Shown here: piece by piece, positions 36,277-40,598 of the stretch
Position numbering within the stretch: the stretch's first letter is position 1
How the letters are laid out: each line of letters begins with the position of its first letter
Assembly (NCBI GenBank): GCA_009840625.1
Contig: VXNJ01000010.1
Coordinates: forward strand, 248,001 to 312,000
Length of the DNA: 64,000 bases
DNA from: Chloroflexota bacterium
GTDB lineage: Bacteria > Chloroflexota > UBA11872 > VXNJ01
Reading direction: 5' to 3'
Notes under the pieces: generated by a model
The model's database searches: none
Seen by the model: the letters and a program-made list of their open reading frames with translations, nothing else
Told to the model about the DNA's origin: nothing
Made by a program: the position numbers and the translations under genes

Positions 36277-36924
36277 TCAGGAAGGGCTCGGGCCGGGCAG
36301 CCGCCAGCGCCGGCGCTGCGCGGGTACCGTTTCGCAGTCTTGCAGTCCCAAATCCCGGCGCACGTGGCTAGGCCCGCCGGTCGCCTCCCCGGCGCCCGGG
36401 GCGATTGCCAGGCACAGCATCGAGTCGGCCAGCCGCAGCGATCCCTCGGCGTCCAGCGCGAACCGCTGCAAGGGCGAATCCGAGCAATCCTCTAGGAAGA
36501 GATTGGCCGCATCCTCGGCCGCCGCCGCCGACATGCACAGCTGGTAGGCCGGCATCTGCAGGTTGCCCGGCAGCGGGGTTCCGGACCGGAAAAGCTCGTC
36601 GTCGGCGCCGGGCTTGCAGGTATGGGCGCTCAGTGCCGCGGCGAGGTCGAGACTGGCGCCAAAACCGGGGACGTCTACGCAGTAGAACTCGGGCTCGTCC
36701 AAAGGATCGATCAGCTGCACCAGCGTCGCCCCGCCACCGCGGGAGCCGAGCAGCGGAGCGGGCGACGACGTCGTCAATTGATCGGACTCGACACGGTCCT
36801 GCCCGGACGGATCGACCGCGGAAACGACGGGGATTGGAGACGGCCCGGCGGCCGGACCGGAACTCGTGCTCGCTGCGTCCTCGGTACACCCGGCTAGCGA
36901 CATTGCAAAGAGCGGCAGCAGCAC
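36277..36924 (-). CDS. Lipoprotein with ricin-B-like C-terminus
   Basis: A 215-residue exported protein. The N-terminus is a short lipoprotein signal, LLPLFAMSLAGC, with the lipobox Cys at residue 13. A Ser/Pro-rich linker follows. The C-terminal part (LRLADSMLCLAIAPG, LGLQDCETVPAQRRRWRL) resembles a ricin-type beta-trefoil repeat, with the Q.W position near the end as RRW. It may bind carbohydrate at the cell surface; that is inference. It lies 73 bases after the Cache protein gene on the same strand. Confidence 0.65.
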   Translation of the reverse strand: MLLPLFAMSLAGCTEDAASTSSGPAAGPSPIPVVSAVDPSGQDRVESDQLTTSSPAPLLGSRGGGATLVQLIDPLDEPEFYCVDVPGFGASLDLAAALSAHTCKPGADDELFRSGTPLPGNLQMPAYQLCMSAAAAEDAANLFLEDCSDSPLQRFALDAEGSLRLADSMLCLAIAPGAGEATGGPSHVRRDLGLQDCETVPAQRRRWRLPGPSPS

Positions 36925-36997: not shown

Positions 36998-37528
36998 CTA
37001 TTCCCACCATCCGGACCCGAAATAGAGTTCGTCGTGGCGGACTACCCAAGTGTGTTTGAGCGTATCCATTGCGGTCTGGGGATTTTCGAAGTGGTAGCTG
37101 ACCCAGACGCCGGTCTCGGTGGCGGCGCCCATTTCCGGCCCGTAATCGTACCCGGTTGAATCGACTCGGGCCTCCCGGCCGGTGCCGATGCGGTCCTTGC
37201 GCAGGGGGTGCGAGATCATGATTTCGTTCTCGTCCATGATGAACACGTACCAATGCCCGTTTACGCTCTCTGTGGTGTTGTAGAACGCAACCGTGTCCAC
37301 GCGGCCGTGCGAGTCGTAATAGTCGATCGCCTGTTGCACGAATTCTTGAGTGAACGCGTTCGGATCGGCGACGTTCGAGGGGTGGGCCGGTGCCGGCGCT
37401 GACTTTGGCTGCCCGCCGGTGAATGCCAGCAACGAGAAGACCAACGCGAGGATGGCGATCGCCAGCGCGACAACGCTGAGCAACGCGACCGGGACGGCGA
37501 GGCTATCACCGCCGTTTCCTGATGTCAT
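36998..37528 (-). CDS. Single-pass protein with Cache-like sensor domain
   Basis: A 176-residue protein with one N-terminal membrane helix (VALLSVVALAIAILALVFSLLAF) and an extracytoplasmic domain containing DYYDSHGRVDTVAFYN, WYVFIMDENEIMISHPLRKD and GVWVSYHFENPQTAM. These are features of sCache-type small-molecule sensors. There is no cytoplasmic signalling domain, so a partner is needed or it acts as a binding protein. ATG 37528 follows AAGGAG at ideal spacing. Confidence 0.75.
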   Translation of the reverse strand: MTSGNGGDSLAVPVALLSVVALAIAILALVFSLLAFTGGQPKSAPAPAHPSNVADPNAFTQEFVQQAIDYYDSHGRVDTVAFYNTTESVNGHWYVFIMDENEIMISHPLRKDRIGTGREARVDSTGYDYGPEMGAATETGVWVSYHFENPQTAMDTLKHTWVVRHDELYFGSGWWE

Positions 37529-37698
37529 CAACGACTCCTTGTTGATTCCGCGCGGCCGCCCTTAACCGCCGTCAATTGGGATGCGGGCCCGGCCACTCGG
37601 AACAATGTGCTGGCCTTGATTCGGCAGCCAAAACCTGCCGCCTGCCCGCTAATTTTCGCCGAACCCGGGCCCTTTCAGCAATCGCGGGATGTGCTATG

Positions 37699-37782: not shown

Positions 37783-38415
37783 ATGCGATCGGGACAACAA
37801 GATGCCCCCGAATTGGCGGCGGGTGAAAGCTGGGATGCGATCCACCAGACCCTTGAGCGATCGCACCGCTCCCTTTATCTGGCGGGCACGGCATCGATCC
37901 TGCTGCTCTGGGGCGTGCTGACGTCGGGGTACTTTCTGGTGAGTTTTGCCCTCGGCGAACTGGCTCCAGAATTCGTCGCCGACTACCCCTGGTACCATGG
38001 GCCGATTTGGGCCGTGTTGGGTCCGGTGGGGATGGTCGGCAGCATGGTCATCGGGCACCGTGCGAGCGAGCGCAACGCCGGTGGGAGGGCGGCCCGCAAC
38101 GCCGGCATCCGGGTGTTTTTGTACTGGTTGGCGATCGCAATGGCGGCAGGTGTGATTCCCGGTGTCGCCGGCATGTGGAATTCGGTGCAGGCCGAAAACA
38201 TCCCCTCGACAATCCTCAGCATCATCTTCCTGGGTTACCTGCTGTTTGGCATCCTTTTCCGGCCTGCCCTTGCCGTGGTCGGGGTTGCGCTTGCGGCCGC
38301 GGTCATTGCCCCCCACCACCTCGCCGGAGACTGGGCCGACTTGGTATCCGGCTTGGCGGTGCTGACGATCTGCGGGCTGGGGGTGGTCTGGATCCGCCGG
38401 AGCGGCCATCCGTGA
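37783..38415 (+). CDS. Integral membrane protein paired with a regulator
   Basis: A 210-residue protein with about six membrane helices, for example LYLAGTASILLLWGVLTSG and IPSTILSIIFLGYLLFGILF. The N-terminal 30 residues are hydrophilic. No transport or enzyme motif is visible. It shares a GTGA overlap with the winged-helix gene, so the two are translated together. This pairing suggests that the regulator controls its own operon and the membrane protein is either the output or a sensor. Confidence 0.75.
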   Translation: MRSGQQDAPELAAGESWDAIHQTLERSHRSLYLAGTASILLLWGVLTSGYFLVSFALGELAPEFVADYPWYHGPIWAVLGPVGMVGSMVIGHRASERNAGGRAARNAGIRVFLYWLAIAMAAGVIPGVAGMWNSVQAENIPSTILSIIFLGYLLFGILFRPALAVVGVALAAAVIAPHHLAGDWADLVSGLAVLTICGLGVVWIRRSGHP

Positions 38416-38726
38416 GCACGGAGGAGATCGTCCTGGACGAGACCATTCACCAGCCGACGCGACTCCGCATCATGACCATGCTGGTCGCCCAGGCCGAGGA
38501 TGGGAGGCTCGCCTACGGGTTCATTCAGCAGGCGCTGGAACTTACCGGCGGCAACCTGACGACTCACCTGCGCAGGCTTGAGGATGCGGGGTTTCTCGAG
38601 ACGTGCAAGGTGTTTGAGAACTCCAAGCCGCGCACCTGGATTAGCGCCACCGAATCGGGCCGCCGCGCCTACGCCAGTTACCTGACCAATCTCAGAAAAG
38701 CCCTCGACTGGTCGCCGCCGCCCTGA
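38412..38726 (+). CDS. Winged-helix transcriptional regulator
   Basis: A 104-residue single-domain wHTH of the small HTH_34 type. IHQPTRLRIMTMLV, LTGGNLTTHLRRLEDAGFLE and a wing with SKPRTWISATESGRRAYASY are the family landmarks. There is no ligand-binding domain. GTG 38412 overlaps the upstream stop (GTGA). It probably binds the TTTGT dyad at 37699-37726; this is inferred from context. Confidence 0.87.
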   Translation: MSTEEIVLDETIHQPTRLRIMTMLVAQAEDGRLAYGFIQQALELTGGNLTTHLRRLEDAGFLETCKVFENSKPRTWISATESGRRAYASYLTNLRKALDWSPPP

Positions 38727-38834: not shown

Positions 38835-40598
38835 ATGCCGACGGCCACCTCTGAATCCAGGCATCCCCGCTACGAGGCCGATGAGAACCCGCCGCTGCTG
38901 GCCAGCGTCGGCCTGGGTCTGCAATTCAGCCTCATAGCCTCCGCCACGCTCCTGGTGACGCCGGTCATCGTCGCCCAGGCCTCGGGCCGCGGCGACGCCT
39001 ACCTGGACTGGATGGTTTTCGCGTCCCTGGTCGTCGTCGGCCTCTCGACCATGCTGCAGGTGCGGCGGCTGGGGATCGTGGGCGCCGGCGCGGTCCTGCC
39101 GATGTTCACGGCCGCGTTTTCGATCCCGTTCTGCATCACCGCGGTGGTCGACGGCGGACCGGGCACGCTGACCACGCTCATGCTGGTCTCGGCCGCGCTG
39201 CAGGTCGTGATTTCGCGCTGGCTGTTCATCCTGCGCCGGATAGTGACCCCGACGGTGGGCGGCACGATCATGATGATCCTCTCGATCACCCTGGCCTACG
39301 TCGTCTTCGGTCTGCTCGACGAGGCCTCGGCCGAAGAACCGGTGGCGGCCCCGGTGACGGCGCTCGTGACCCTGATCTTCGTCGGCGCGCTGACCATGCG
39401 CGGCAACGCCGTGCTGCGGCTCTGGGCGCCGGTGATCGGTATCGTCATCGGCTGTCTGGTGGCGGCCGGCTTTGGGATCTACGACCCAGATAGGGTGCTC
39501 GCGGCCCCGTGGGTCGGCATCCCCGGATCCTGGCCGGGCCTTACCTTTTCATTCGGGGTCCCCTTCTGGACCCTGCTGCCGGCGTTCCTATTTCTGGGAG
39601 TGATCATCTCGATCCAGGTCAACGGGGCGGCAATCGCCCAGCAGCGGGTCGCCTGGCGCAAATCGCAGGCGGTGGATTTCCGCGCCGTCCAGGGGGCATT
39701 GGCCGGCGCCGGCGCCAGCAACTTCGCCGCCGGCCTGGCCGGAGCGGTCCCCAACATCGTCAACCCCGGGATTATTGGATTCACCCAGATAACCGGCGTC
39801 GCCGCCAGGCGGGTTGGATACGTGATGGGCTTGATCCTGATCGCGGTCGCGTTCCTGCCCAAGGTCTCCGGATTCCTGAGCTCCATTCCGGGACCGGTAA
39901 TGACCGGCTACCTGGTGATGATCACCGGGCTGCTGTTCGTCGACGGCGCCCGCACCGTGATCCAGACCGAGCGGGACCGTCAAAAGCTGCTGGTAGCGGG
40001 GGTTTCGTTCTGGATCGGCGCCGCCTTCCAGTTCGGGCTGTTCAACTTGCCCAACCTCGGTTCAGTCCTGGGGACGGTGCTCAAAAGCGGGGTTACGACC
40101 GGCGGCCTCACCGCGATGGCGGCGGTCATATTCCTGGAACTTACCAGCCAGCGCCGGATGCGATTCGAATCGCGGCTGCACATAGATTCGCTGCCCGAAC
40201 TGAACGAGTTCATCGAGGAGTTCGTGCGCCGCCGCAAATGGGGTGATCCGATGCGGGAGCGTTTGCTGGCGGTGGCCGAGGAGACCCTGCTCACCCTGGC
40301 GCCGCTGGACCTTGAAGCGGAACTGTCACTTGATCCCGAACCGGCGGATGAGGAAATCAGGCGCCTGGTGGTGCTGGCCAACAGCGAGGGCAGCATCGCC
40401 GACCTGGAGTTCATAGGGGGAGGCAACGAGGAAAACCTGGAAGATCAGATCAGCCAACTGCAGTTGCACGACGAAGAGACGCCGCTGGACAATGAAATCT
40501 CATTGCGCCTGCTGCGGCGCTATGCCACATCGGTACAGCACCAGCAGTACCACGACAAGGATGTAATCACCGTACAGGTGGATGACCCCAGCCCGTAG
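38835..40598 (+). CDS. NCS2-type permease fused to a C-terminal ATPase-like domain
   Basis: A 587-residue protein. Residues 1-430 form a nucleobase:cation symporter-2 type membrane domain of about 14 helices (GLGLQFSLIASATLLVTPVIV, GAVPNIVNPGIIGFTQITGVA, PGPVMTGYLVMITGLLFVDG). Residues about 450-587 are a soluble domain with LPELNEFIEEFVRRRKW, RLLAVAEETLLTL and ISLRLLRRYATSVQHQQYH. Its layout resembles an anti-sigma/histidine-kinase ATPase (HATPase_c_2), but the N-box Asn and the glycine boxes are not evident. It may sense or regulate transport. The paralogue at 48276-50057 has the same architecture. ATG 38835 was chosen just before the helices; TTG 38727 is possible. Confidence 0.84.
   Translation: MPTATSESRHPRYEADENPPLLASVGLGLQFSLIASATLLVTPVIVAQASGRGDAYLDWMVFASLVVVGLSTMLQVRRLGIVGAGAVLPMFTAAFSIPFCITAVVDGGPGTLTTLMLVSAALQVVISRWLFILRRIVTPTVGGTIMMILSITLAYVVFGLLDEASAEEPVAAPVTALVTLIFVGALTMRGNAVLRLWAPVIGIVIGCLVAAGFGIYDPDRVLAAPWVGIPGSWPGLTFSFGVPFWTLLPAFLFLGVIISIQVNGAAIAQQRVAWRKSQAVDFRAVQGALAGAGASNFAAGLAGAVPNIVNPGIIGFTQITGVAARRVGYVMGLILIAVAFLPKVSGFLSSIPGPVMTGYLVMITGLLFVDGARTVIQTERDRQKLLVAGVSFWIGAAFQFGLFNLPNLGSVLGTVLKSGVTTGGLTAMAAVIFLELTSQRRMRFESRLHIDSLPELNEFIEEFVRRRKWGDPMRERLLAVAEETLLTLAPLDLEAELSLDPEPADEEIRRLVVLANSEGSIADLEFIGGGNEENLEDQISQLQLHDEETPLDNEISLRLLRRYATSVQHQQYHDKDVITVQVDDPSP

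Follow-up and report, generated by a model that had tools for sequence, protein, structure and literature searches.

Introduction

SLC26/SulP transporters have a membrane fold homologous to that of the NCS2/SLC23 family (UapA, UraA, SVCT1) and carry, directly after the last helix, a C-terminal cytoplasmic STAS domain with the fold of the anti-anti-sigma factor SpoIIAA. The natural partner of this SpoIIAA/STAS fold is SpoIIAB/RsbW, which together with UsfX and RsbA is covered by HATPase_c_2 (PF13581). Deletion of STAS impairs SLC26 transport, and in the same work SLC23 proteins are said to hold no carboxy-terminal domain (PMC6497670). A transporter domain and a GHKL-fold signalling domain occur in one chain in the transceptors CbrA and CrbS, in which a STAC domain joins the SLC5 transporter to a histidine kinase (PMC13022988, PMC7096432, PMC5715377).

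Here, we analysed a stretch of 64,000 nucleotides from a Chloroflexota bacterium (the window), in which a sequence-only reading had noted an NCS2-type permease with a soluble C-terminal domain resembling HATPase_c_2. We found that the permease ends in a domain with the predicted SpoIIAB fold, that is, the opposite partner of the one carried by SLC26/SulP, so that in both cases the C-terminal domain belongs to the anti-sigma partner-switch set. The same reading knew of no described system of this design, and neither did our search of the literature, from which subscription journals were largely absent, return any report on NCS2–GHKL fusions.

Results

An NCS2 permease with an anti-sigma-like C-terminal domain

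The gene starts with an ATG at 38835 and ends with the stop at 40598 (Table 1). Residues 26–397 of its product matched PF00860 (Xan_ur_permease) with E=2.2e-33 and 116 bits against a cut-off of 27, which assigns it to NCS2/SLC23 and upholds the first claim of the earlier reading. The AlphaFold model of the full-length monomer reached a pLDDT of 86 and a pTM of 0.83. In Foldseek searches with the membrane domain, UapA (5i6c, 1e-14) was the best match, followed by UraA, SVCT1 and SLC26, in agreement with a 7+7 inverted-repeat UraA fold. The final membrane helix comprises residues 419–437; after a few basic residues, and about four residues past the helix in the full-length model, a separate domain begins at around residue 442.

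Table 1. Features of the permease locus in the window.
Feature	Coordinates	Strand	Basis
Complete fusion gene, NCS2/SLC23 permease plus pseudo-GHKL domain (P0001)	38835..40598	+	ORF, translation: 587 aa
Membrane domain, residues 20–437, 7+7 UraA-type fold	38892..40145	+	Foldseek, UapA and UraA profile match
C-terminal pseudo-GHKL (HATPase_c_2-like) domain, residues 442–587	40158..40595	+	AlphaFold, Foldseek
N-box-like helix, residues 471–496: R476, E482, E483 kept; Mg-binding Asn replaced	40245..40322	+	Alignment with Chloroflexota RsbW-like proteins
G1/lid region, residues 521–537: DxG absent; E525, N534, E536, D537 conserved	40395..40445	+	88-domain alignment
G2 region and last strands, residues 554–576: S556-x-R558 for GxG; H569, Y572, H573, D576 conserved	40494..40562	+	88-domain alignment
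Second copy of the permease–GHKL fusion, 593 aa	48276..50057	+	PF00860 match, domain match E=2.9e-61, ORF

This domain of about 145 residues was predicted with the element order E-H-H-E-E-H-H-E-E (AlphaFold, 71 sequences; pLDDT 82, pTM 0.78). When the model was compared with the PDB by Foldseek, each of the first 19 matches was an anti-sigma GHKL protein (chains of UsfX, RsbW or SpoIIAB, E 8.3e-7 to 5e-4) and histidine kinases came after them, which points to a Bergerat-type alpha/beta fold and bears out the proposed resemblance to RsbW and SpoIIAB. None of the 50 Foldseek matches listed was a STAS fold; a STAS identity was thereby ruled out, and the C-terminal arrangement of SLC26/SulP with it. 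Thus, neither of the outcomes that the sequence-only reading had named as contrary to it, a fold unrelated to GHKL proteins or a STAS-like domain, was observed.

Profile searches gave a more graded picture. The C-terminal domain of the window protein had no confident Pfam match of its own and no HATPase_c_2 match, and none of the Pfam or NCBIfam models in our scans exceeded its own cut-off for this domain; a divergent member scored 16 bits with PF13581, for which 27.4 bits are needed. HATPase_c_2 was nevertheless matched by 8 of 16 divergent relatives (best E 1.1e-5) and the NCBIfam anti-sigma model RsbA_anti_sig by five of the 16 (best 1.5e-5), and a search of the source genome with HATPase_c_2 reached an NCS2–GHKL paralog at 0.018. 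The comparison by hhalign with seven near-identical Chloroflexota RsbW-like proteins was weak (E 0.005, probability 7%); in the alignment, W469, R476, E482, E483 and E525 were common to both sides. Searching PDB sequences with the domain profile returned unrelated chains only, at E 0.2 or worse. At the level of sequence, the link to the anti-sigma GHKL proteins is therefore carried by the divergent members. Weak matches to TADA2A-like and other Pfam models occurred in one or two members each and were discarded as chance.

The ATP-binding boxes are replaced by a new conserved signature

The absence of clear ATP-binding boxes, already suspected from the single sequence, extended to the whole family. 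In an alignment of 88 family domains, all 88 had Glu at the position of the N-box catalytic base, and the position of the Mg-binding Asn was Asn in only two. The DxG of the G1 box and the GxG of the G2 box were found in 0/88 each, and no copy with intact ATP boxes occurred in this set. Other polar positions were nearly fixed (N534, E536, D537, S556, R558, H569, Y572, H573 and D576, all present in the window protein), with S556 in 85, R558 in 87 and H569 in 88 of the 88 domains. The proportion of columns conserved to at least 95% was 21% in the domain and 18% in the membrane part.

Since the boxes were lost while the N-box Glu remained invariant and a new polar set became nearly fixed, the domain is a conserved pseudo-kinase under selection and not a decaying one; kinase activity was presumably lost together with the ATP-binding boxes. 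Compared with RsbW, SpoIIAB, UsfX and RsbA, the domain shares the fold, the element order, the N-box Glu, W469, R476 and its length; unlike them, it is fused to a permease, lacks the Mg-binding Asn, the G1 Asp and the G2 glycines, has its own invariant polar set and comes without a conserved partner gene. The locus also differs from CbrA and CrbS in having an SLC23 instead of an SLC5 transporter, and neither a STAC domain, nor a HisKA match, nor ATP boxes were found behind the membrane part.

The substrate site of the membrane domain is altered

We take the UapA/UraA substrate site, from established structures, to be formed by a Glu in TM8 and a Gln or Glu in TM10. The window protein does not have this combination, which marks known substrates and not membership in the fold family: by column counts, it has Q261 and A265 where the family has Glu and Asp in TM8. 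The TM8 Glu of UapA and UraA was kept in 35 of the 43 other fusion members, the window group having Gln, and unlike in UapA and UraA the TM10 position was Ser in most fusion members. The window copy sits on a long branch in the tree. Orthologs at 70–74% identity, from other families of the class and several genera, have the Q261/A265-type changes and also the domain; because of this, the sequences indicate that the window gene belongs to a stable ortholog group with an altered substrate site and is not a dying copy. As the substrate-site Glu has become Gln in this group, the window copy probably transports something other than the substrates of UraA and UapA. According to the TM8 residue, the NCS2–GHKL paralogs can be typed as Glu (most), Gln (the window group) and Lys (L007 and L174), which suggests different substrates.

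The fusion is found in several phyla

The source genome contains seven NCS2 genes, six of which carry the GHKL-like domain; these six include the second copy in the window (Table 1). With a profile made from the six paralogs, the fusion was detected in 29 of 61 genomes (source genome and relatives), and the domain profile was positive in 31 of 400 genomes of the phylum. When 84,980 named species genomes were scanned, 471 loci emerged, which extends the fusion to several phyla: the best 80 of them were MAGs titled Chloroflexi or Chloroflexota (SAR202, Dehalococcoidia, Caldilineaceae), Acidimicrobiia, Actinomycetes, Opitutales, Gemmatimonadaceae, Latescibacteria and Immundisolibacterales. Many of the copies are likely to belong to sponge symbionts. 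One locus (L083) comes from jk18x7bins.13, an Opitutales MAG from the sponge Ircinia (PMC9531527), and, judging from their names, MAGs with the prefixes RHO, COS, IRC and APA fit the sponges sampled in PMC8163846. Divergent members were present in 13 of 337 genomes of a proteobacterial class, and 347 genomes of Actinomycetota gave two further matches besides the centre genome, one of them weak. Virus-borne relatives were not found, nor were plasmid-borne relatives of the divergent proteobacterial domain. The domain is not a chance extension, because six of the seven NCS2 genes carry it, hundreds of other genomes have it too, and its constraint equals that of the membrane part.

In every domain copy with enough flanking sequence, an NCS2 domain precedes it. 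The short ORFs that we checked as candidates for a stand-alone domain were contig ends (L175–L177), a gene with an in-frame stop (L174) and a remnant (L097). The remnant, on a Latescibacteria chromosome (L097:4300-6423), consists of the last membrane helices and the domain only and lies directly behind an ORF for a Tsx-like nucleoside channel (PF03502 E=3.9e-5, below cut-off). In L174 (G008:C26), which is related to the L007 paralog and adjoins an aminotransferase-like ORF, a single in-frame stop leaves two pieces of 387 and 195 residues; this split is either a sequencing error or a pseudogene.

No partner gene is conserved next to the fusion

Across the best 80 of the 471 loci, no neighbour was widely conserved, the commonest being another NCS2-type paralog (12 loci), and no sigma, STAS, kinase or phosphatase gene was a conserved neighbour in these loci or beside four orthologs. 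In the window, the permease gene closely follows that of an HTH_34 winged-helix regulator (38418–38723), which is itself preceded by a 210-aa ORF without a Pfam match (37783–38412). The window neighbours tested, these two included, were absent beside the four permease orthologs, and an operon with the upstream HTH_34 regulator or with the downstream rhodanese was rejected since neither is conserved there. Further upstream, a minus-strand ORF (36280–36924) with a weak Ricin_B_lectin (beta-trefoil) match just under the cut-off adjoins a Cache-domain protein (37001–37531).

Elsewhere in the source genome, a gene for an RsbW-like protein lies close to one for an RsbV-like STAS protein. The genome also encodes another small STAS protein and has a longer STAS ORF of 567 aa, probably a SulP transporter. 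At G000:C1:522017-527404, genes for a STAS protein and an RsbW-like kinase cluster with a third, weak match to HATPase_c_2; this is a likely partner-switch module.

Discussion

We propose that one group of NCS2 (SLC23) elevator transporters has gained a GHKL-like domain as a fixed regulatory component. Because the linker to the last helix consists of just a few basic residues, the domain would lie immediately beneath the membrane part on the cytoplasmic side, where it could control or enable transport in cis by touching the gate domain, by dimer formation, or by binding a cytosolic ligand or protein in its remodelled pocket. Regulating transport in this way from the cytoplasmic side, much as STAS does in SLC26, is in our view its likeliest role. 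For the full proposal, namely that the domain derives from GHKL anti-sigma kinases of the RsbW/SpoIIAB/RsbA type and is an in-cis regulatory part of the permease, we see about an even chance.

The sequence-only reading had instead suggested that uptake is coupled to a sigma or two-component switch. The ATP boxes are lost family-wide and no sigma, STAS or kinase neighbour is conserved; an effect on transport in cis is at least as likely as such coupling. A variant that dispenses with ATP has the domain bind a STAS anti-anti-sigma factor or a sigma factor, with the transport state capturing or releasing this partner and thereby changing transcription. The domain has the fold of proteins that bind sigma factors and STAS proteins, the source genome has an RsbW-like protein near an RsbV-like one and a second STAS protein, six paralogs that differ at the substrate site could well make up a set of sensors, and CbrA is a known precedent of a transporter joined to a kinase (PMC13022988). 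Against this, a conserved STAS, sigma or phosphatase neighbour gene is absent and the usual switch cannot run without ATP, so that we regard the variant as rather unlikely; its more specific form, a nucleobase-type transceptor whose ATP-independent anti-sigma fold binds or lets go of a STAS or sigma partner as the transport state changes, appears less probable still. If true, it would be an RsbW equivalent anchored in the membrane and would mirror the SLC26–STAS arrangement.

The domain might also be structural only, aiding folding, dimer stability or membrane targeting and sensing nothing. The tails of other transporters behave so, the effect of STAS deletion on SLC26 transport can be read in this way, and the window group retains the domain despite its changed membrane substrate site; the polar set fixed across phyla, H569 and R558 above all, exceeds the needs of a scaffold, and we doubt this explanation. 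The invariant Glu at the position of the N-box catalytic base would fit an active kinase or ATPase with unusual boxes, which is very improbable given that the Mg-binding Asn is nearly always replaced and that the G1 Asp and the G2 GxG are missing from every aligned domain. As for a misfusion, an assembly artefact or a decayed gene, to which the long branch of the window copy could point, the orthologs that keep the architecture in several genera refute it, and the recurrence of the fusion among relatives and in named genomes also speaks against it; we assign it a negligible likelihood.

A large bacterial group of SLC23 proteins carries a C-terminal domain, though the family has been described as being without one (PMC6497670). 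Each of two related elevator families, SLC23 and SLC26, has thus taken up a different member of one partner-switch pair, which makes the NCS2–GHKL fusion a test of why 7+7 transporters recruit partner-switch domains. The fusion is also an example of a GHKL pseudo-enzyme whose conserved signature is new, and it provides, in sponge symbionts, a candidate control point for the uptake of nucleobase-like compounds.
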